The notes under the pieces were generated by a model. The model was given only the letters and a program-made list of their open reading frames with translations. It made no database searches and was not told the origin of the DNA. DNA of 43,619 nt. It comes from Burkholderiaceae bacterium (GTDB lineage Bacteria > Pseudomonadota > Gammaproteobacteria > Burkholderiales > Burkholderiaceae_C). Positions 2,581 to 22,069 of the stretch are shown here, piece after piece. The stretch lies in NCBI GenBank assembly GCA_016790175.1, contig JAEUPI010000113.1, positions 1-43,619 of the forward strand. The letters are read 5' to 3'. Made by a program: the position numbers and the translations under genes. Within the stretch, counting starts at the first letter, position 1, and every line of letters begins with the position of its first letter.

Positions 2581-3885
2581 ATGGCAGTTGCAACTACCGC
2601 TGGAGGCGATGGCGCCGGTGTCTGCGCGGCCATCGGCAAAGGCGCGGTCTACCTCGTCGCGGGCCGGCGTCTCGAAGCGGAATCGCGTGAATTCGCCGAG
2701 GCGGTCGCAAACGCCTTCGAGCGCCATGAACGCCCGCGCTGCCTCTGCCTGGTCGAAGGCGTGGAGATGTACATCGCCCGCCTGGCTGGTTCGACTGGGG
2801 GCTACATCGTCAAGCGCATGCCGGACTCGGGCAGCCGTCATGCGCCGGACTGCCCTTCCTACGAGCCGCCGCCGGAAGCATCCGGCCTGGGGCAGGTGCT
2901 GGGTACGGCAATCACCGAAGACCCGGCAACCGGCGAGACCACGCTGAAGCTCGACTTCCCGCTGTCGAAGATCGCCGGACGCTCGACGATGCCTTCGGCC
3001 GTTTCCGACAGCGATAGCGCGGCCAGCAGCGGCACGAGGCTCTCGCTGCGCGGCCTGCTGCACTACCTGTGGGACCAGGCCGAGCTGACGCGCTGGCAGC
3101 CCGGCTTCACGGGCAAGCGCAACTGGGCCACGGTGCGCAGGCATCTGCTGCAGGCGGCCGAACACAAGATCGCCCGCGGCGACGCCCTGCGCACCCGGCT
3201 CTACGTGCCGGAGGTCTTCTCGGTCGAGGAGCGCCACGCGATCAACGCCAGGCGCCTCGCGCAGTGGCAGCACGCGGTCGCGGCACCGGGCAAGCCGCAG
3301 CACCTGATGCTGCTGATCGGCGAGGTGAAGGAGATCGTGCCCGCGCGCTACGGCTACAAGGCGGTGGTCAAGCACGTGCCCGACCAGGCCTTCGCGATCG
3401 ACGAACAGCTCTACCGTCGGCTCGCACGGCGCTTCGAGCCGGAGCTGGCTCTGTGGGGCGCGGCCGACGACATCCACATGGTGGTGATCGCGACTTTCGG
3501 CGTGAGCAGTGCCGGCATCTCGGCGATTCATGAGCTGTGCCTGATGCCGGTGACGCGGCAGTGGCTGCCTGTCGAGGACGGATTCGAGAAGCAGCTCATC
3601 GATCGGCTCGTCGGCGAGAACCGATCGTTCGTCAAGGGGCTTCGCTACAACCTCGGCAGAACCGGCCACATCGCGAGCGCTACGCTGACCGACTGTGAAG
3701 CGTCGGTGCCGCTACTCTTTGTCGTGCATGACGGTCCCAACGACTCTGGACATGCGATCGACATTTGCAACGTCGGGACGCCCGCCTGGGTGTGGCACAG
3801 ATCGGGCGAGCCGATGCCGCTGTTGCCGAAGCCCTCCACTCGCCAAACCCCTGCTGGCCGGCCGTCGATGGATACACGCGGCTGA
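2581..3885 (+). CDS. DUF1173 family protein
   Basis: A 434-residue protein that follows the LPD7 gene after 21 bases. It matches the DUF1173 family, which occurs on conjugative plasmids and ICEs: an early CLCL segment, then YIARLAGSTGGYIVKRMPDSG and a Cys/His group (HAPDCPSYEP) that could bind metal. A central LLHYLWDQAELTRWQPGFTG segment and the C-terminal AWVWHRSGEPMP also fit. The function of the family is unknown. No strong ribosome site precedes ATG 2581, so a slightly different start is possible. The last 20 residues look atypical, perhaps because the cargo junction lies just downstream. Confidence 0.85.
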   Translation: MAVATTAGGDGAGVCAAIGKGAVYLVAGRRLEAESREFAEAVANAFERHERPRCLCLVEGVEMYIARLAGSTGGYIVKRMPDSGSRHAPDCPSYEPPPEASGLGQVLGTAITEDPATGETTLKLDFPLSKIAGRSTMPSAVSDSDSAASSGTRLSLRGLLHYLWDQAELTRWQPGFTGKRNWATVRRHLLQAAEHKIARGDALRTRLYVPEVFSVEERHAINARRLAQWQHAVAAPGKPQHLMLLIGEVKEIVPARYGYKAVVKHVPDQAFAIDEQLYRRLARRFEPELALWGAADDIHMVVIATFGVSSAGISAIHELCLMPVTRQWLPVEDGFEKQLIDRLVGENRSFVKGLRYNLGRTGHIASATLTDCEASVPLLFVVHDGPNDSGHAIDICNVGTPAWVWHRSGEPMPLLPKPSTRQTPAGRPSMDTRG

Positions 3886-4017: not shown

Positions 4018-4263
4018 CTATGGGAGCTCCCTCTCGACGCAGGTCCTCGTTTGCGGTACGCCCGTGGGCCTGGCGAAGACGCAGACCTTGAAGCCATGGA
4101 CCTTCTGGGGAAGCTCGCACGCCGCGTGCACAAAGGCAGGATCAATCCACGCCCTGAGTTCCACCCCGCTCCCATCCACCCACGGCACGATCGTCATCGC
4201 ATGTGCGGGAAGGGCGGATTTCCAAAGAAGGGACTGAACGGCCCTGTCAATGCGACGGCTCAT
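4018..4263 (-). CDS. Small protein translationally coupled to the trypsin-like protease
   Basis: An 81-residue ORF whose ATG overlaps the TGA stop of the upstream protease gene by four bases (ATGA), a classic sign of translational coupling in one operon. I do not recognise a family. After a basic N-terminus it has a run of alternating hydrophobic residues (VELRAWIDPAFV and VHGFKVCVFARPTG), suggesting a small alpha/beta fold. Small partner proteins are commonly encoded next to bacterial trypsin-like proteases, so an inhibitor, substrate-sensing or effector role is possible but inferred. The call rests on the overlap, on the absence of a competing gene, and on the spacing. Confidence 0.5.
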   Translation of the reverse strand: MSRRIDRAVQSLLWKSALPAHAMTIVPWVDGSGVELRAWIDPAFVHAACELPQKVHGFKVCVFARPTGVPQTRTCVERELP

Positions 4264-5357
4264 GTGTTGTGCCCCGCGACAAGCTCGACGCCAAGCGCAC
4301 TCAAAATCGATTCGATCGGCAACACGAGGCTGTATCCAGTCCCTACCGCACCTTTGAGTCCACCAACGATCAATCCGACAGCGTGCCGTTCGCCTGAGCC
4401 GTCAACAAACGTCACCAGGGAGCCCGAATCACCCTCTTCGGAGAAGACCTCGCCGATTCCCTCGACAACAAAGACGGGCTCAAAGTAGACCTGACTCTTG
4501 AAGCTGTAGCCAACACCCGTGAGCCCGTAGTGAATCGCGACGGCGCTCTGCGCTTGGCCACGGACAATTCCCTTCGTGTGGCCCGTGGTCCTGCCAACCT
4601 TTTCGACACTCATGTTCGCTTTGACCGCGCGAGCACTCGAGGGAGTGTCGTAGTTGCTGCCCTGCAGTGACGAAACCCGACCTTCGTCCCTGATCTTGAA
4701 GAGAGCGGCGTCAAGGTTCTTGTGCACCGGGACGGCTCCGGGAATGCCAGGAACCATGTCGAGCCCGCGCTCGTGATATCCAATGGTGATTGGATCGAAC
4801 CCCATCGGGCTGACGTCGAGGACGCCGGGAGCGAGGATTGGCATCTGGCTTGCCGCGTGGTTGCATCCACCGGTGACGTGGTTGTTGCTCAAGCCGTACA
4901 GAACGCCCGCGGCATCTCTAACCAGCGCACCAAGCGTTCCCGCGTCCTGGCAGTTGGCCAACGAGATGGAACTCCCGCACGCATAGCAGTCGCCCTCGGG
5001 CCTCAACACGACGTGAAAGGGCTTGCTGTGAGGCTTCGGCAACTCGCCACCGACCTCATCGACGACGCCCTGCCGGTACTCGATGGATGACACGCCGACC
5101 GTCTTGGGAAGCACGGTCGCTTCTTTCTTGGTCGGCTTGGCCTTTCGGGTCAGCACTGTGATCACGCGCGTGACCTCGTTGAAGAAGATTTGCTGAATCC
5201 CCTTCTTGCGCAGAACGTCCCTGGCCGGGTCTGCGACAGGACTGATGGTCTCGACATCCGCAGCCGTCACCGTCGCCGGCAAAGTGACGTTCCCCGCAAA
5301 CAATCCCTCGCCCACCACCCAGGCGTGGAACACATCGGCATCGGTCTTCGTCGTCAT
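4260..5357 (-). CDS. Cytoplasmic trypsin-like (chymotrypsin-fold) serine protease
   Basis: A 365-residue protein. Start 5357 is preferred over longer frames because AAGGGAGA precedes it at good spacing. The catalytic triad of an S1-like peptidase can be placed: His160 in LSNNHV, Asp216 in NLDAALFKI and Ser311 in EEGDSGSLV. There is no signal peptide or membrane segment, so it should act inside the cell, unlike secreted trypsins. The N-terminal 110 residues are a separate domain, followed by a Cys-containing CYACGSS loop. It is divergent from the XRE-ImmA pair and lies next to a ubiquitin-like operon. Intracellular trypsin-like proteases are recurrent parts of phage-defence and stress systems, so a defence effector is a reasonable inference. 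Confidence 0.75.
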   Translation of the reverse strand: MTTKTDADVFHAWVVGEGLFAGNVTLPATVTAADVETISPVADPARDVLRKKGIQQIFFNEVTRVITVLTRKAKPTKKEATVLPKTVGVSSIEYRQGVVDEVGGELPKPHSKPFHVVLRPEGDCYACGSSISLANCQDAGTLGALVRDAAGVLYGLSNNHVTGGCNHAASQMPILAPGVLDVSPMGFDPITIGYHERGLDMVPGIPGAVPVHKNLDAALFKIRDEGRVSSLQGSNYDTPSSARAVKANMSVEKVGRTTGHTKGIVRGQAQSAVAIHYGLTGVGYSFKSQVYFEPVFVVEGIGEVFSEEGDSGSLVTFVDGSGERHAVGLIVGGLKGAVGTGYSLVLPIESILSALGVELVAGHNT

Positions 5358-5441
5358 AGCGTCTCCCTTGTTCGTACCTGGTTTCCGGTCGCCCGCGTGA
5401 TGCATGGGTAGGGATGAAGCACGCGACAGGCGGATGATAAC

Positions 5442-5532: not shown

Positions 5533-5892
5533 ATGACCCCATTTGGAATGTTCATGCGAACGGTACGGCTGGAGAAGGGCTTGCTTCTGAAAGACGTTGC
5601 TGAACTGATGGAGGTGACGTCGGCGTATCTGTCGGCGCTGGAGCATGGGAAAAAGGGTGTACCCAACGCTCAGTTCGTATCCGGTCTGGAAAATCGACTC
5701 AGGCTCGACGCCAAGCAGCGCGACGCCCTGCGCCGCGCGGTACGCGACTCGTCGACCAGTCTGGCCATACCGCCGAAAGCAAATCCCGCCGTGTTCGAGA
5801 CGGCCCATGCATTTGCTAGGAAGCTGCCGAGCCTGTCGGATCGGCAGCTTGATCTGATCAACAACATCCTGCGGGACAAGGACAAACGATGA
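5533..5892 (+). CDS. XRE-family HTH transcriptional regulator
   Basis: A 119-residue protein with AGGAG seven bases before ATG 5533. Residues 5-65 form a helix-turn-helix of the Cro/C1 type, with LLLKDVAELMEVTSAYLSAL followed by EHGKKGVPN. The C-terminal half is a helical dimerisation or sensing segment. The stop overlaps the start of the ImmA/IrrE gene by four bases (ATGA), so the two are co-translated. In such pairs the metalloprotease usually cleaves the repressor to induce the controlled genes. It may control the divergent protease, its own operon, or the downstream ubiquitin-like operon. Confidence 0.85.
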   Translation: MTPFGMFMRTVRLEKGLLLKDVAELMEVTSAYLSALEHGKKGVPNAQFVSGLENRLRLDAKQRDALRRAVRDSSTSLAIPPKANPAVFETAHAFARKLPSLSDRQLDLINNILRDKDKR

Positions 5893-6548
5893 GCGATTGG
5901 CTGCACGGCGTGCGTGTGCCGCCGATGAACATCTTGACACTGCGAGGTCTCGCCGAGGCCATTCGGCAGCACTCGACACTGAAGGCGGAGGAACCGTTTC
6001 CGGTACTGCGGTTCCTGGAATGGTCGATGCTGAAGATCTTGAAGGACTTTGACTGGGAGATCGTGACTTCACTGCCCGATGGCGACGAAGCTCGGGCATA
6101 CCCGGACGGCGCGCCACACTACACAAAGGGCCCGCTGATTGAGTTGCTGCCGCATGTCTACGACGACGCAGCAAACAACAAGGGGCGACCGCGCCTGACG
6201 ATCCTGCACGAATGCGGCCATGCTCTCCTGCATCGACACGTTGCTGTCCATCACCGAGGACCGAAAGGTGCCGAGCTGAAGACATTTGAGAACTCGGAGT
6301 GGCAGGCGAATCAGTTTGCCGCCGAACTGCTCATGCCCGTCGCGAGTTTCGATGCGCCTGGCGATCTCGAGGCCTATGTTCAGGCGATGGGCGTGAGCCG
6401 CGAGGCCGCATGCAACCGCGCGCTCCAACTGATGCGCTCGCTGAACAAGCCCCGTCCTTCGTGGCCACTCGAGGTCTATGCGAGCTATGCGAAGAAGGCG
6501 AGGAAGGACGCTGCGTCGGTTCTACACGGGCCAACCGGCATCCACTGA
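5889..6548 (+). CDS. ImmA/IrrE-family zinc metallo-endopeptidase
   Basis: A 219-residue protein. The zinc-binding HExxH motif is present as HECGHALLH at residues 107-115. The downstream SEWQANQFAAELLMP at about 136-150 supplies the third ligand (probably Glu137) and is the family signature. ImmA-type enzymes cleave XRE repressors to switch on mobile-element or stress genes. The four-base overlap with the XRE gene supports that pairing. No membrane segment is seen, so it is cytoplasmic. It could also be an antitoxin-cleaving protease of a defence module. Confidence 0.88.
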   Translation: MSDWLHGVRVPPMNILTLRGLAEAIRQHSTLKAEEPFPVLRFLEWSMLKILKDFDWEIVTSLPDGDEARAYPDGAPHYTKGPLIELLPHVYDDAANNKGRPRLTILHECGHALLHRHVAVHHRGPKGAELKTFENSEWQANQFAAELLMPVASFDAPGDLEAYVQAMGVSREAACNRALQLMRSLNKPRPSWPLEVYASYAKKARKDAASVLHGPTGIH

Positions 6549-6588: not shown

Positions 6589-6733
6589 ATGACCCAGAAA
6601 TAGAAAGCGGCCGAATACCGAAGCACCCGGCCGCGGAGGTCAAGTCACGAGAACTCACCTCGGTTAGCACCTGTGATTTTCTGTAGCGAGCACTCCGTTG
6701 TCAAGGCGTCTTCATGCCGGCCAGGCAGCCGGC
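6589..6733 (+). promoter_or_regulatory. Leader of the ubiquitin-like operon: mini-ORF plus two hairpins
   Basis: In the 215-base gap before the ubiquitin-like gene, GGGAGG is followed at 6589 by ATG and a four-codon ORF (M-T-Q-K-stop, ending 6603). A 7-bp stem follows directly (GCGGCCG 6607-6613 with CGGCCGC 6628-6634). A second stem (GCCGGC at 6716 and 6728) sits 18 bases before the ribosome site of the ubiquitin-like gene. No good sigma-70 promoter was identified. This arrangement could allow attenuation or translational control of the operon, but that is inference. Confidence 0.35.
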
Positions 6734-6763: not shown

Positions 6764-7075
6764 ATGCAACCGGAAATCGAAGCTGGCCACAACGTGGCCC
6801 ACCATGAGACGTTGGTCGTTCGCGTGCGCTACATCGGTGCGCGGGAACCCTTCGTCGACCCCAAGGCTCACGCGACGGAAACGCTCGGCGCGTTCAAGCC
6901 GCGCGTGTTGGCGTTCTTCAAACTCGTTGAGGGCAACGCTGACGGTGGCACGAAGGTGTACACCTTCGCCGTCGATGGGGTCGCAGTGACGAACGTAGGA
7001 GCGATGCTCGGAACGCTCGCCGCGGGCAAGCACGAACTCAAGCTCGACTTGCTCGAGCAGTTCAAGCAGGGGTAG
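6764..7075 (+). CDS. bilA: BilA-like ubiquitin-like protein (beta-grasp modifier)
   Basis: A 103-residue protein with AGGAG seven bases before the ATG. It has the strand-helix-strand pattern of a ubiquitin-like fold: ETLVVRVRYIGA, a helix around AFKPRVLAFFKLVEG, then KVYTFAVDGVAV and a final HELKLDLLEQFKQG. It belongs with the prokaryotic multi-ubiquitin/Bil-type modifiers. It ends in a single glycine immediately before the stop, so the C-terminus may be ready for activation without processing. It is the first gene of an operon with E2-like, JAMM and E1-like genes in the BilA-B-C-D order. The Bil system attaches its modifier to phage structural proteins and blocks assembly. The fold call is strong; the exact subtype is inferred from context. 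Confidence 0.8.
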   Translation: MQPEIEAGHNVAHHETLVVRVRYIGAREPFVDPKAHATETLGAFKPRVLAFFKLVEGNADGGTKVYTFAVDGVAVTNVGAMLGTLAAGKHELKLDLLEQFKQG

Positions 7076-7079
7076 GCCC

Positions 7080-7523
7080 ATGGCAACCGACTTCGAGCTC
7101 GCCCTCTTTGAAGAGGAGCTGCGAGAAGTTCGGTGCTTGCCCGAGGCAAGCCGTTGGGAGCTCGAGCGGGACGAATCCGTCCCGCTCGGGCTGTTCACGG
7201 TCATGCACCCGAAGAGCAGGCCTGCCGAACGCTTCAAAGCGAGGCTGCGTTGGAAAACCTTGTTCGGCGCGTTCTCGCTGAAGTACGTCCAGTTCGAGAC
7301 AAACGCTGACAACGATCCGACGGCCTGGCCGAAGTGTTTTGGGTTCAGGCCTGGATCGCTTGACGCCTGCCTTCCGTGGACCGCAGAAGGTCATGGGCTG
7401 CACCCCGAATGGGAAGGAACAGTCACCGGATCGTTCCCGAAGATCGAGAGACCGATTCACTTTGCGCTGCTGCAATTGCAGTCATCACTGGACAACTCAT
7501 ACGAAGGACGAGGTACACGATGA
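7080..7523 (+). CDS. bilB: BilB-like E2-type conjugating enzyme
   Basis: A 147-residue protein starting four bases after the ubiquitin-like gene. It has an E2-like layout: an N-terminal helical and strand region, then a core containing CFGFRPGSLDACLPW followed by GHGLHPEW, and C-terminal hydrophobic helices. Cys97 in DACLPW is the likely catalytic residue, with Cys86 an alternative. E2 enzymes receive the modifier from E1 as a thioester and transfer it to the target. No E3 gene is seen, as expected for these compact systems. The stop overlaps the JAMM gene by four bases (ATGA). Identification rests mainly on operon position and the HPEW/Cys pattern. Confidence 0.72.
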   Translation: MATDFELALFEEELREVRCLPEASRWELERDESVPLGLFTVMHPKSRPAERFKARLRWKTLFGAFSLKYVQFETNADNDPTAWPKCFGFRPGSLDACLPWTAEGHGLHPEWEGTVTGSFPKIERPIHFALLQLQSSLDNSYEGRGTR

Positions 7524-8026
7524 GGCAATCCCACTGGGCCATTCCAGAGGATCTGATGGTGGAGTCGCTGCGCACCATGCGCCCGCATGGCGCAGTTGGT
7601 AATGAGGGCCTAGCACTTTGGCTTGGTACGGGCTCGGGCACGCGAGCTGAAATCACGCACGTTGTGGAAGTGCGTGGCGCCGGCTTTCGAACCTCTCCGT
7701 TGTTCATGAGCCTGTCGATGCGCGCCATGGCATCGCTGACGGAGTTGGCTGAGCGGCAGGGCGCGTATCTGGTCGGTCAGATTCATTCGCATCCTGGGAC
7801 GCTCTTGAACTTGTCGGATCTCGACGAGGAGCACGGCATTCGCATTCCAGACTATCTGTCGGTGGTGTGCCCGTACTACGCACAACGCAACTCGGCCCTC
7901 GCAGACTGTGGCATCCACGTCTTCGAAGGCCGACGCTATCGACGCCTGGATCGCGCCGAGGCAGAACACAGAATCACCGCCACCGCGTCGCGCGTCAACA
8001 AGATCTGCATCGAGGTGCCCGCATGA
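7520..8026 (+). CDS. bilC: BilC-like JAMM/MPN+ metalloprotease (deubiquitinase)
   Basis: A 168-residue protein. The complete JAMM zinc motif is visible: Glu29 in VGNEG, then His89-Ser-His91-Pro, Ser99 and Asp102 (the HxHPx(6)SxxD pattern). JAMM enzymes cleave a modifier from its precursor or from conjugates. Because the modifier here already ends in Gly, removal of conjugates may be the main job. The gene overlaps its neighbours by four bases at both ends (ATGA), so all products should be made in step. There is no signal peptide. Confidence 0.9.
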   Translation: MRQSHWAIPEDLMVESLRTMRPHGAVGNEGLALWLGTGSGTRAEITHVVEVRGAGFRTSPLFMSLSMRAMASLTELAERQGAYLVGQIHSHPGTLLNLSDLDEEHGIRIPDYLSVVCPYYAQRNSALADCGIHVFEGRRYRRLDRAEAEHRITATASRVNKICIEVPA

Positions 8027-9603
8027 AGACCATCACCAGCAAGGCTTCAAGCCGTCCACTCGGCGTTGCGAAAGCTCTAGTGGGAGGGGCTATAGACGAG
8101 GGCTTTGTCTACTCAAAGTCGGTGATTCTCACCGGTGACAGCGTGGTCCTCGGCACGGCCAACGGTCGATGGTGTTTTCTGGACTCGCTACAGCTGCTTC
8201 TTCGCGTGGTTGGCCATCTGACGATCATCGTGCCGGCAGAGTTGGAAACACTCGATGCGGAGGTGCGGCAATACTGCAGCGATGCTTGGTGCCGCGGTTC
8301 GATTCAGATCATTCGGCCAGAAACGCCGATCGCTCTGGGATTCGCAGACGCCATTCTCAGTGTGGGCAGCGAAGTCGCTGCCGAGCTTCCATGGACAACC
8401 ATCAACTCCAATGGATGGGTTGCTAGGGTATCGTCGGGACCGACGGCACTCCCAGCGGACACGGGACAAGCAAACCCGATCGCGGCATTGATGGCTGTCT
8501 CGCTCGGGGTCACCGAGGTGTTTAAACGTTTGTTCGGCGTACCCGCCGATCGCGCGCCGCTGCTCGACCTCGTGGAGTTTTCTCTCTTCGAGATGTCATC
8601 TGAACCGTCGTCTCTGGGGCCGCCACTGCCTGAGGACATCGATCTGCCCGATACGCTACTCGTGGGCGGCGGAGCCATCGGAAACGGTCTCGCGCTGCTG
8701 CTTTCGCAGTTGCCGCTGCGCGGGCGGATGCACATCGTTGACAAGGAGGACTACGCCGAGGAGAACCTGGGCACGTGTGTGTTGGTCGCGCTAACCGGTT
8801 GGCTTGGGGAGCCGAAGGCCGAGAAACTGGCCGCCTGGCTACGAAGACATAGCCGAATGGAGGTGACTGGCGAGAAAGCGCTTGTTGCCGACGCACGCTC
8901 GGGTAGCACCGTGCGCTCGCTGTCCGTCGACCTGGTGATTGACGGACTCGACAACGTGGGGGCCAGGCACGAGGCTCAATCGCTGTGGCCCTCCGTGATT
9001 GTGGACGGCGGCATCAGTGAGGTCGGAGCGTCTGTCGTTCAGAGCAGATTGGACCGCCCTGATCTGGCGTGCCTCGCTTGTTCGTATGACCAGCCGAGAG
9101 ACAGCCTCCTAAACCGGCAGCGCCGCCTCAGCGGGCTGAGCCATGAATCGCTCGCTGACCAGAATCGCACGCTAACCGAACAGGATGTGGCGCAAGCCGA
9201 CCCGACCAAGCGCGAGTGGCTGCGGAAGCTTCTTGCGCAGAAGCGTACTGTGTGTTCCATTTTCAGCGAGGCCGGCTTGGCGGAACTCGGTGTCGACGCG
9301 GAAGAGGGCTTCAGACCGTCGGCGCCGTTTGTCGCAACGGCGTCCGCGTCAATGGTCATCGCTGAAGTAGTGAAGGCGCTGGTCTTCCCAGAAGCCGAGT
9401 TTGCGCAATGGTCTGCGATGGGAAGCTTGTTTCTGGGGCCTGCGTCGACGGCAAAGATCCACCGAAGGCCGCTCCCGACATGTCATTGCGTCGTGCACAG
9501 AGCGGTGATCGAGGCGCTTCGGCGCAAACGACGGTCCTCTTGCGCCCGTCACTCGTCGCAGGCTGTGGTGGAAGGGTCGGGCTTGGCGCCGCTTTCCCTC
9601 TGA
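8023..9603 (+). CDS. bilD: BilD-like ThiF/E1-family modifier-activating enzyme
   Basis: A 526-residue protein. The first 200 residues are an extra alpha/beta domain seen in prokaryotic two-domain E1-like proteins. The ThiF domain begins around 208 with a Rossmann loop GGGAIGNG (215-222), Asp240 in HIVDKED, and ENLGT around 247. CLAC at 350-353 together with CHC at 487-489 could hold a structural zinc. Cys411 in RTVCSIFSE is the probable catalytic thioester cysteine. The enzyme would adenylate the Gly C-terminus of the ubiquitin-like protein and pass it to the E2. It is the last gene of the operon. The final 30 residues are basic and may be variable. Confidence 0.88.
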   Translation: MKTITSKASSRPLGVAKALVGGAIDEGFVYSKSVILTGDSVVLGTANGRWCFLDSLQLLLRVVGHLTIIVPAELETLDAEVRQYCSDAWCRGSIQIIRPETPIALGFADAILSVGSEVAAELPWTTINSNGWVARVSSGPTALPADTGQANPIAALMAVSLGVTEVFKRLFGVPADRAPLLDLVEFSLFEMSSEPSSLGPPLPEDIDLPDTLLVGGGAIGNGLALLLSQLPLRGRMHIVDKEDYAEENLGTCVLVALTGWLGEPKAEKLAAWLRRHSRMEVTGEKALVADARSGSTVRSLSVDLVIDGLDNVGARHEAQSLWPSVIVDGGISEVGASVVQSRLDRPDLACLACSYDQPRDSLLNRQRRLSGLSHESLADQNRTLTEQDVAQADPTKREWLRKLLAQKRTVCSIFSEAGLAELGVDAEEGFRPSAPFVATASASMVIAEVVKALVFPEAEFAQWSAMGSLFLGPASTAKIHRRPLPTCHCVVHRAVIEALRRKRRSSCARHSSQAVVEGSGLAPLSL

Positions 9604-9914: not shown

Positions 9915-11234
9915 CTATGGGCTGAGCGCGGCCAACCGAGCGGCCGCGGTGGCGAACAGCTCGCGCAGCGGGTGGTGGCTGGCCAGCATCACCCGCACGC
10001 GACGCGTGTTGCGCAAGATCGCCGCGCCGATCTTGAGCAGCCGCACGCGGATGGTGGCCGCACTGGCGCGTTCCAGCTCGGTGGCCTGCAAGGCCAGCGC
10101 GCGCAGCCGCTGCATCAGCGTGTAGGCCAGTGCCGCCAGCAACAGGCGGAACTGGTTGGCGATGAAGCGCGAGCAACTCGCGCGGGTGCCGAACAGATCG
10201 AGTTGCGCTTCCTTGATGCGGTTCTCGGCCTCGCCGCGCTGGCAGTACAGATGGTCATACAGCTGGATGGCGTCGCCCTGGAGGTTGGTGACGATGAAGC
10301 GCGGGTTGGTGCCTTGGGCGCCGTACTCCAGCCGCGTGATGACGCGCCGCTCGTGGCTCCAGCTCTTGGCCGCGTAGGCGAACTCGCCGATCAGCCGCTG
10401 CTTGGTGCGGCTGCCAGCGTAGGCATCGGCCAGCGCGGTTTCAGCCAACTCGACCGCCGCGTGCAACCGCGCGTTGCGCGCCAGCCCGATGACGTAGCCC
10501 ACGCCTGAGCGCTCGCACCATTGCAGCAGGCGTCGCCGGCAGAACCCCGAGTCGCCACGCACGATGAAGCGGGTACTCGGCCAGGCCTGGCGCAGCCGCG
10601 TGACGAGCAGCCTGATCACCGCCGCGGCGTGTTTGGCGCCATCGATCTTGCTGGGCCTCAAGTAGCACGCCAACATCGCCTGGCCGCAGAACACGTACAG
10701 CGGCAGGCAGCAGTGATGGTCGTAGTAGGCGTGGAACTGCGAGAGTTCCTGACTGCCGTGCAGCGGCACGTCCGAGGCGTCGATGTCGAGCACCAGTTCC
10801 TCGGGTGGCTTCTGGTGGGAGGCAACGAACTGCTCAATCAGCACGCCGTGCAGCGCCCACGCCTGCGCACGTGTAGCCCGGTTCTCCAGGCGACTGAACG
10901 TGGGCGCCGAAGCCAGCGCCTCATCGCGCCCCACGGCCGTTTGCATCAGCACATCGTCGCGCAGCGCCTTGTGGTCGTTCAGGTCCTCGTAGCCGCAGCA
11001 CAGGCCGTACAGGCGTTGCGCCAGCAACTCGCGCAGACCGTGGTGGATGCGCTCGGGGTCTCGCCGGTCGGGGATCGCCGCAGCCGCCGCGCGGCTTAAG
11101 CCCAGGTGCCGATCGACCTGGCGCAACAGCAGCAGGCCGCCATCGCTGCTCAGGTCGCCACCGCTGAAGTCGGCCTCAATGACGCGCCGGCCGAAGCGGC
11201 CGAATTCGATTCCGTTCTTCGTACACTTTGGCAT
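9915..11234 (-). CDS. IS1380-family transposase
   Basis: A 439-residue DDE transposase. The start MPKCTKNGIEFG and the segment FSGGDLSSDGGLLLL are typical of IS1380 transposases. Likely catalytic acidic residues include Asp in VLDIDASDVPLHG, Asp in FIVRGDSGFCR, and Glu in the C-terminal GEAENRIKE. It is full length with no frameshift. It provides cut-and-paste transposition of the surrounding element and is transcribed leftward, opposite to the ubiquitin-like operon. Confidence 0.92.
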   Translation of the reverse strand: MPKCTKNGIEFGRFGRRVIEADFSGGDLSSDGGLLLLRQVDRHLGLSRAAAAAIPDRRDPERIHHGLRELLAQRLYGLCCGYEDLNDHKALRDDVLMQTAVGRDEALASAPTFSRLENRATRAQAWALHGVLIEQFVASHQKPPEELVLDIDASDVPLHGSQELSQFHAYYDHHCCLPLYVFCGQAMLACYLRPSKIDGAKHAAAVIRLLVTRLRQAWPSTRFIVRGDSGFCRRRLLQWCERSGVGYVIGLARNARLHAAVELAETALADAYAGSRTKQRLIGEFAYAAKSWSHERRVITRLEYGAQGTNPRFIVTNLQGDAIQLYDHLYCQRGEAENRIKEAQLDLFGTRASCSRFIANQFRLLLAALAYTLMQRLRALALQATELERASAATIRVRLLKIGAAILRNTRRVRVMLASHHPLRELFATAAARLAALSP

Positions 11235-21107: not shown

Positions 21108-21530
21108 ATGTCGAACGAAGTCGCCTTAACCATCGGTCAGCTCGCGCGCGAGGCCGGCGTCAACGTCGAGACGGTGCGCTTCTACCAGCGCCGAGGGCTG
21201 TTGTCGGAGCCCGACCGGCCGGCAGGCGGCATTCGCCGCTACGCCGGCATCGACACGGAGCGCATCCGCTTCATCAAGGCAGCGCAGCGGCTGGGTTTCA
21301 GCCTGGACGATGTTGAAGAACTCCTGCGGTTGGAAGACGGCACACATTGCAGCCAGGCGCGTCGGCTTGCCGAACGCAAGCTCACCGAGATTCGAAGCAG
21401 GATCGATGACCTTCGGCATATCGAGTCCGCGCTCGACGAAATGGTCGGCCGCTGCCGCGCGTCCCGCGGCAAAGTGAGCTGCCCGCTGATCGCGTCGGTT
21501 CATCGTGCGGGCGCGGCGCAACAACCGTGA
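21108..21530 (+). CDS. merR: MerR mercury-responsive regulator
   Basis: A 140-residue protein. A winged HTH lies at 7-45 ([20 protein letters not shown]). The three mercury ligands are conserved as Cys81, Cys116 and Cys125, a spacing that matches the well-studied Tn501 MerR. A long dimerisation helix connects them. It is divergent from merT across the operator described above. Its stop overlaps a GTG that could start the AP2-like ORF. The protein represses and, with Hg(II), activates the mer promoter. Confidence 0.95.
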
Positions 21531-22069
21531 CTGAGACGTCATCGGACGCATCGTCAACGAATCAGAGACGCATGTACGCGATCACACGCCTTCAGGCGAG
21601 CAGCGGAACCTGGTACTGGGTCGTCAACTTCAGCAGGCGCGGCGTGCATCACGAACGGCGGTTCTACGATCCCAAGCACGGCGGCAAGAACGCCGCACTG
21701 CGAGCCGCGATCACTTGGCGTGACGAAGAGCTCGCCAAGGCGAAGGTCCTCGGCGTTCTCGAGTTCTGCCAGCATAAGCGCAGCAACAACTGCAGCGGTA
21801 TGCCCGGGGTCCACTTCCTGTCGCCCCCTGCGCAGCCCGAAGGAATCTGGCAGGCGAAGCTGAAGCTTGCCGATGGCACCCGGTGGACAAAGACCTTCTC
21901 GGTCCGAAAGCACGGATACGACGAGGCCTTCAGGCTTGCGAGCGCCGCACGGCGAGAGATGCTTCGCAATGCACAGGATCGGCCGTACGTGTACGACCCG
22001 CTCGCGAAGCGCGTCGCTGCCCTTCAGGCAAAGGATGCCGACCAGGGTGGTGGTGCTCGTCGCCGCTGA
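21527..22069 (+). CDS. AP2-domain-like protein overlapping merR
   Basis: A 180-residue ORF that could begin at a GTG overlapping the merR stop (GTGA) or at ATG 21572, 15 codons in. The region around residues 85-140 ([21 protein letters not shown], then [23 protein letters not shown]) has the GV-x-W-A/K-FS-KHGYDEA pattern of bacterial AP2/ERF-like DNA-binding domains. The first part has a strand-rich [17 protein letters not shown] segment, perhaps a second degenerate copy. Such domains occur in homing endonucleases and mobile-element proteins. Co-expression with merR is suggested by the overlap, but the function is unknown. Confidence 0.6.

Follow-up and report, generated by a model that had tools for sequence, protein, structure and literature searches.

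A probable Bil-type ubiquitin-like conjugation operon on a Burkholderiaceae mobile element, with an upstream regulator pair and a putative antisense RNA

We analyzed a 43,619-nucleotide (nt) stretch of DNA from a Burkholderiaceae bacterium (hereafter the window; contig JAEUPI010000113.1 of assembly GCA_016790175.1) and propose that a four-gene operon at 6764..9603 probably encodes a diverged Bil-type system for conjugating a ubiquitin-like protein (Ubl), with phage proteins as its targets by analogy and with expression probably controlled by a helix-turn-helix (HTH)/M78 regulator pair and a putative antisense RNA. Computational tests of gene content, homology, active-site conservation, predicted E2 fold, a conserved regulator neighbor and an RNA-like element support this proposal. 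Beyond these results, we infer catalysis, targets, a role in defense, repression by the regulator and the antisense mode of action.

A conserved four-gene operon with Bil-like E1 and deconjugase

The operon consists of plus-strand genes for a BilA-like Ubl (6764..7075; 103 amino acids [aa], ending in FKQG), a BilB-like E2 (7080..7523; 147 aa, with Cys97, Glu103, His105 and His108), a BilC-like JAMM deconjugase (7520..8026; 168 aa) and a BilD-like E1 (8023..9603; 526 aa), the four genes of Bil systems in the same order. A preliminary description of the locus had pointed to the tight packing of these genes, the terminal glycine of the Ubl and the catalytic motifs, all of which are borne out by direct reading. 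All four reading frames were confirmed; a four-base gap separates the Ubl and E2 genes, and the other junctions are ATGA overlaps (7520-7523 between E2 and JAMM, 8023-8026 between JAMM and E1). The E2 catalytic residue Cys97 lies within CLPWTAEGHGLH, the JAMM enzyme contains NEG at 28-30, HSHP at 89-92 and S99..D102, and the E1 contains GGGAIGNG at 215 and Cys411 within VCSIF.

The order Ubl-E2-JAMM-E1 recurs in seven sister loci, indicating that the arrangement is not due to chance. These are found in metagenome-assembled genomes of a Geobacteraceae member (L002), a member of the Proteobacteria (L003) and a member of the Terriglobia (L004), on a plasmid of Deinococcus aetherius (L005), in two genomes from the window's own family (L020 and L078), and in L083, a locus that ends early and shows only the start of the E1. 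The window E1 is 36-56% identical to those of L002-L005. When the proteins of these four loci are aligned with those of the window, C97, E103 and H108 of the E2, E29, H89, H91, S99 and D102 of the JAMM enzyme, and C411 of the E1 are invariant, and the C-terminal QG of the Ubl is present in all five (L004 has one extra residue).

Comparison with the characterized Bil proteins (8tyx/8tyz/8tz0) shows likeness in gene order, in E1 and deconjugase matches over most of their length, and in the catalytic Cys columns. The E1 matches the PADLOC BilD model at 2.6e-21, and residues 24-501 of its family profile align with 24-503 of BilD (8tyz; E 1.2e-23). The N-terminal extension of 200 residues, whose role the preliminary description called unclear, aligns with the first part of BilD. 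In these matches the protein agrees with BilD, which combines an inactive and an active adenylation half with a catalytic Cys (Cys417). The column of Cys411 holds a Cys also in L010 (a Janibacter melonis plasmid) and in five canonical BilDs; the exceptions are L009, which has a gap, and L011 (Sinorhizobium), which has Val with a Cys further along. The JAMM enzyme resembles BilC-type deconjugases in its PADLOC match (BilC, 1.1e-12), in the match of its family profile to BilC of 8tyx (1.9e-13) and in its JAMM residues. A role in sulfur transfer or cofactor synthesis, as for ThiS/MoaD with ThiF/MoeB, is highly improbable: the E1 does weakly match ThiF/MoeB models, but its NCBIfam ThiF score is far below the cut-off (22.1 versus 275.25 bits), its N-terminal part is BilD-like, a Cys follows the adenylation loop, and the E2 and JAMM enzymes are encoded by separate genes.

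As a separate observation, the haloarchaeal (Natrinema) plasmid locus L009 carries a Ubl-E2-JAMM-E1 set whose E1 matches PADLOC BilD at 1.2e-29.

Divergence of the E2 and Ubl

The E2 was predicted to adopt a fold that, together with the catalytic Cys and the Glu at +6, agrees with UBC-type E2 enzymes, and its model is closest to BilB. Its motif, C-x5-E-x-H-x2-H, differs from the active site given for BilB in a review (PMC11354881; Cys138/Glu144/His146/His151). The hhalign comparison of the Ubl with the C-terminal domain of canonical BilA gave a probability of 58%. At 103 aa the Ubl has room for one domain, compared with the two that BilA possesses according to that review, and a protein of 98 aa occupies the BilA position in L011. 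A match of the Ubl to Cnd2 at 0.08 was dismissed as chance level.

Several results for these two proteins, and one for the E1, count against assignment to Bil. In the E2 family the last active-site His stands at +11, against a reported +13 in BilB, and position +8 is occupied by His, Phe or Gln. Neither protein found support in the model collections: the E2 had no match above cut-off among Pfam, NCBIfam and PADLOC models, and the Ubl none at the Pfam cut-off, in NCBIfam, in PADLOC or among PDB sequences. The BilB model matched one of five E2 family members, at 0.0048, and Foldseek returned a best E-value of 1.8e-3 for the E2 model, with no hit below 0.001. Structure prediction failed for the Ubl (predicted local distance difference test score 43.7); that model and its fold search were set aside and not used. 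A search of phage records found no relative of the E1. The lack of PADLOC BilA and BilB matches carries no information, since the controls, the Ubl and E2 of the Sinorhizobium locus L011, fail as well. The assignment to Bil made in the preliminary description is upheld in part, by gene content and order, by the Bil-like E1, deconjugase and E2, and by the mobile-element setting, and stays unconfirmed by structure prediction as regards the Ubl fold.

These findings extend Bil to a lineage with a Ubl and an E2 that are missed by the Pfam, NCBIfam and PADLOC models applied here, and such systems may therefore be undercounted. Two variants of these proteins were seen elsewhere. In L010, an unlisted E2-like frame of the window's type (2672-3127) lies between the Ubl and JAB genes; in L024, BilA and BilB seem to share one 324-aa frame (4311-5285 of the oriented strand), from which release of the Ubl would need cleavage.

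Proposed conjugation pathway

Of the readings considered, a conjugation pathway like that of Bil has the best support. By this route, the E1 would adenylate the C-terminal glycine of the Ubl and take the Ubl onto Cys411, from which it would pass to Cys97 of the E2 for attachment to target proteins; the JAMM enzyme would remove it again. With a terminal glycine already present on the window's Ubl, trimming by the JAMM enzyme should be unnecessary. Phage proteins would be the targets, by analogy with Bil. Bub and polyUbl/JAB-E1 operons likewise comprise ubiquitin-like conjugation genes, and the window differs from them in the conserved cysteines of its E1 and E2. Bub reportedly lacks canonical E1 and E2 catalytic cysteines, whereas Cys411 and Cys97 are conserved here.

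A CapH/CapP-like regulator pair adjoins the operon

Upstream of the operon, an XRE/HTH regulator gene (5533..5892, plus strand; 119 aa, Pfam HTH_31 4.5e-8) overlaps the gene for an M78 (ImmA/IrrE) metallopeptidase (5889..6548, plus strand; 219 aa, Pfam Peptidase_M78 1.5e-9) at an ATGA (5889-5892). The best PADLOC matches are capH (3.7e-9) and capP (1.8e-15), respectively, with several RmrA models ranking after capP for the peptidase. This is the CapH+CapP arrangement, in which an HTH gene beside an M78 gene stands upstream of an immune-type operon. The preliminary description was silent on this pair and on the RNA-like element described below. Seven of eight loci have an HTH/M78 gene or pair next to the operon: as separate upstream genes in the window, L003 and L020, as an upstream fusion in L078, and as a divergent fusion in L002, L005 and L083 (the peptidase motif of L005 was read by eye, and the HTH-M78 match in L083 comes from phmmer). 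No such regulator was recognized by eye in L004. The fused forms set some sister loci apart from CapH+CapP, and the RNA element and four-codon frame that follow the pair set the window apart.

CapH+CapP are damage-responsive controllers according to PMC13373217, which also places CapW or CapH+CapP beside 219 of 544 Bub operons and CapK+CapS upstream of five Bil operons. By analogy, the HTH repressor probably holds expression down until, under stress, the M78 peptidase cleaves it, as CapP cleaves CapH. A search for a palindromic operator common to the promoter region of the HTH gene and the leader of the operon found none; in the window the two have one 9-mer in common. In a separate observation on canonical Bil loci of the window's family, a protein of about 1090-1160 aa precedes the operon in four of five (L021, L022, L024 and L025); that of L021 combines an M78 peptidase and a UvrD helicase in one chain, and the other three start alike by eye.

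Rather than in phage defense, Ubl conjugation could serve as a stress response or in housekeeping of the mobile element, for example by modifying host or conjugation proteins. Genes for conjugation and metal resistance surround the operon, CapP-like M78 regulators respond to DNA damage rather than to phage itself, and phage protection was not shown for the sister kind Bub (the last two points from PMC13373217). Against this, the nearest characterized homologs are those of Bil, whose E1 and deconjugase match best, and the distribution is rare and patchy, as for defense cargo. Among 369 genomes of the class, the type was found at 1e-10 in a single one, that of the window. A profile search of the phylum at 1e-15 yielded 3 of 398 genomes; the two others scored about 1e-22, and one of them, inspected by eye, resembles the Sinorhizobium set of L011. 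PADLOC BilD at 1e-15 picked out 7 of 250 family genomes, namely the window, L020 and the five canonical ones. Viral contigs searched for E1 and JAMM relatives contained none. On balance, we regard a role other than phage defense as unlikely and favor defense by a Bil-type system.

A putative antisense RNA and a short leader frame

The gap between the M78 and Ubl genes spans 215 bases and shows a mean column identity of 71% with L002 and L003. On its minus strand we identified a putative antisense small RNA (6598..6675), formed by a hairpin and an intrinsic terminator (stem 6634-6607, U-rich tail), behind a promoter-like site (6676..6704, minus strand; TTGACA-17-GAAAAT, 10 of 12 matches). The window, L002, L003 and L042 all have the promoter-like site and terminator at matching spacing with a hairpin between; shuffled controls averaged 0.0-0.5 promoter-like sites per region. 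L042, a Paraburkholderia plasmid locus found with the window leader as DNA query, carries the element between an HTH-M78 gene and a short frame followed by a DUF6527 gene.

The plus strand of the same region contains a four-codon frame encoding MTQK (6589..6603; ATG ACC CAG AAA TAG) behind a purine-rich, ribosome-binding-like stretch. Frames of four to five codons occupy the corresponding place in all eight loci inspected, encoding MTQK, MTNK (MNMTNK from an earlier in-frame ATG), MPSE, MTSQK, MVQK, MNNQ and MEYK, and MRKR in L020; a GGAG-like stretch precedes most of them. The frame ends at the terminator of the antisense RNA, where it overlaps the complement of the U-run, and part of its conservation may therefore stem from the terminator.

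Folding favors an RNA made from the minus strand, which folds better than shuffles in five of five loci (z -3.5 to -5.4). A plus-strand leader structure was rejected, as in six of seven loci that strand shows no folding advantage over shuffles (z -0.3 to -1.4); several G-U pairs of one strand correspond to A-C on its complement. In an alignment of seven copies, scored against a consensus structure derived from the same sequences, standard pairs fill 134 of 140 cells (95.7%) on the RNA strand and 104 of 140 (74.3%) on the other; none of 500 shuffles reached the former percentage. Five pairs change on both sides, a number attained by 3 of 500 shuffles. With five copies, 95.5% were paired, compared with at most 51.8% when slid.

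Covariance models extended the search. Built from four copies, the model matched 26 of 399 genomes of the family, and among 28 places besides the window, checked by phmmer within 1.5 kb flanks, one had Bil or M78 neighbors. This weak match (L064/L078; 23.7 bits) falls precisely in the interval from an HTH-M78 gene to a window-type operon. A five-copy model matched 31 of 399 genomes of the order, and its two best matches outside the window, L082 and L083 (40.2 and 33.4 bits), proved to have such neighbors; among the 29 of 33 other places scanned, L109 had one weak M78 match (0.0034) and 26 had none. Both L082 and L083 carry TTGACA-17-GACAAT ahead of the RNA. In both loci a divergent HTH-M78 gene flanks the element on one side; on the other side L083 has another window-type operon and L082 a ubiquitin-like operon of a different kind. 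The L082 operon comprises a Ubl joined to an E2-like domain (Prok-E2_E at 0.01, below cut-off) and a JAB-ThiF frame (ThiF 1.4e-12), an organization distinct from the four separate genes of the window; its Ubl and JAB parts were named by eye after the type 6e (polyUbl/JAB-E1) operons of Iyer 2006 (PMC1779556). Further matches of 25-31 bits occur in the genomes of L002 and L004.

The element might alternatively be a mere terminator with a decayed convergent gene, or a DNA operator, with no functional RNA. Consistent with this, many model matches elsewhere resemble plain terminators, and further results weigh against a functional RNA. The U-run of the L078 copy is degraded, and in L083 the other strand folds as well (z -4.1). 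For the seven copies, the count of further pair types was attained by 59 of 500 shuffles, and the same pairs show eight both-sided changes when read on the other strand, so that the paired percentage alone separates the strands. Covariation among five copies is weak, with 130 of 500 shuffles reaching the paired percentage and 176 the number of both-sided pairs. Model scores fail to separate true copies from terminators, as places without such neighbors score up to 36.7 bits compared with 23.7 for L078; L044, the best family match outside the window (36.7 bits), has no Bil or M78 neighbor. The model found no match in L004, L005, L020 or the five canonical Bil loci of the family, indicating that the RNA is not essential to conjugation and marking, with the HTH/M78 regulator, a difference between the window and canonical Bil.

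On the other side, seven loci preserve the distances between promoter hexamers, upstream hairpin and terminator, base pairing distinguishes the strands as described, new copies turned up by the models adjoin the same kinds of gene, and two HigB/M78 plasmid loci with no visible Ubl operon (L080, and L081, which is cut at the record start) gave no match. We therefore consider the absence of a functional RNA somewhat unlikely. Transcribed across the leader from a promoter of its own, an antisense RNA of about 75 nt would most likely lower operon expression, through leader pairing or transcriptional collision.

The occurrence of the same RNA element at L082 suggests, on what we judge to be somewhat better than even terms, that at least two kinds of Ubl operon (Bil-like and Ubl-E2/JAB-E1) share a transferable control cassette made up of an HTH/M78 damage-sensing regulator, a four-codon leader frame and the ~75-nt antisense RNA. 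Were this so, the RNA would set a threshold, and the costly conjugation machinery would be expressed only once the regulator is relieved.

Other searches added minor points. L045 (34.4 bits) was rejected as a true copy, as it adjoins unrelated genes only. The hairpin, as a DNA pattern with two mismatches allowed, occurs in 16 of 150 genomes and exactly in the window alone. A similar-looking hairpin and terminator (z -3.9; 1 of 200 shuffles as good) occur in L020 together with a four-codon frame; this locus received no promoter call and no RNA model match and was left out of the seven copies. Rfam returned nothing at gathering level for six loci. A literature search for small RNAs beside defense or Bil operons found none in titles and the opening parts of abstracts, which does not establish absence from print.

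Genomic setting

The preliminary description had called the operon cargo on a mobile element between conjugation genes, a fair account given what flanks it. To the left lie a coupling-protein-like frame, an LPD7 protein and DUF1173; to the right are a DDE transposase outside the system (9915..11234, minus strand; Pfam DDE_Tnp_1_4 6.7e-168), a YhcG-type nuclease and a relaxase-like frame, and further right a heavy-metal P-type ATPase, two-component genes and an efflux set with a CusF domain. Near the metal-resistance genes, 21527-22066 has an AP2 domain match (2.1e-9) with a MerR gene adjoining. A frame at 4260-5405 on the minus strand, divergent from the HTH gene, has a Nal1 C-terminal-like match (1.7e-7).
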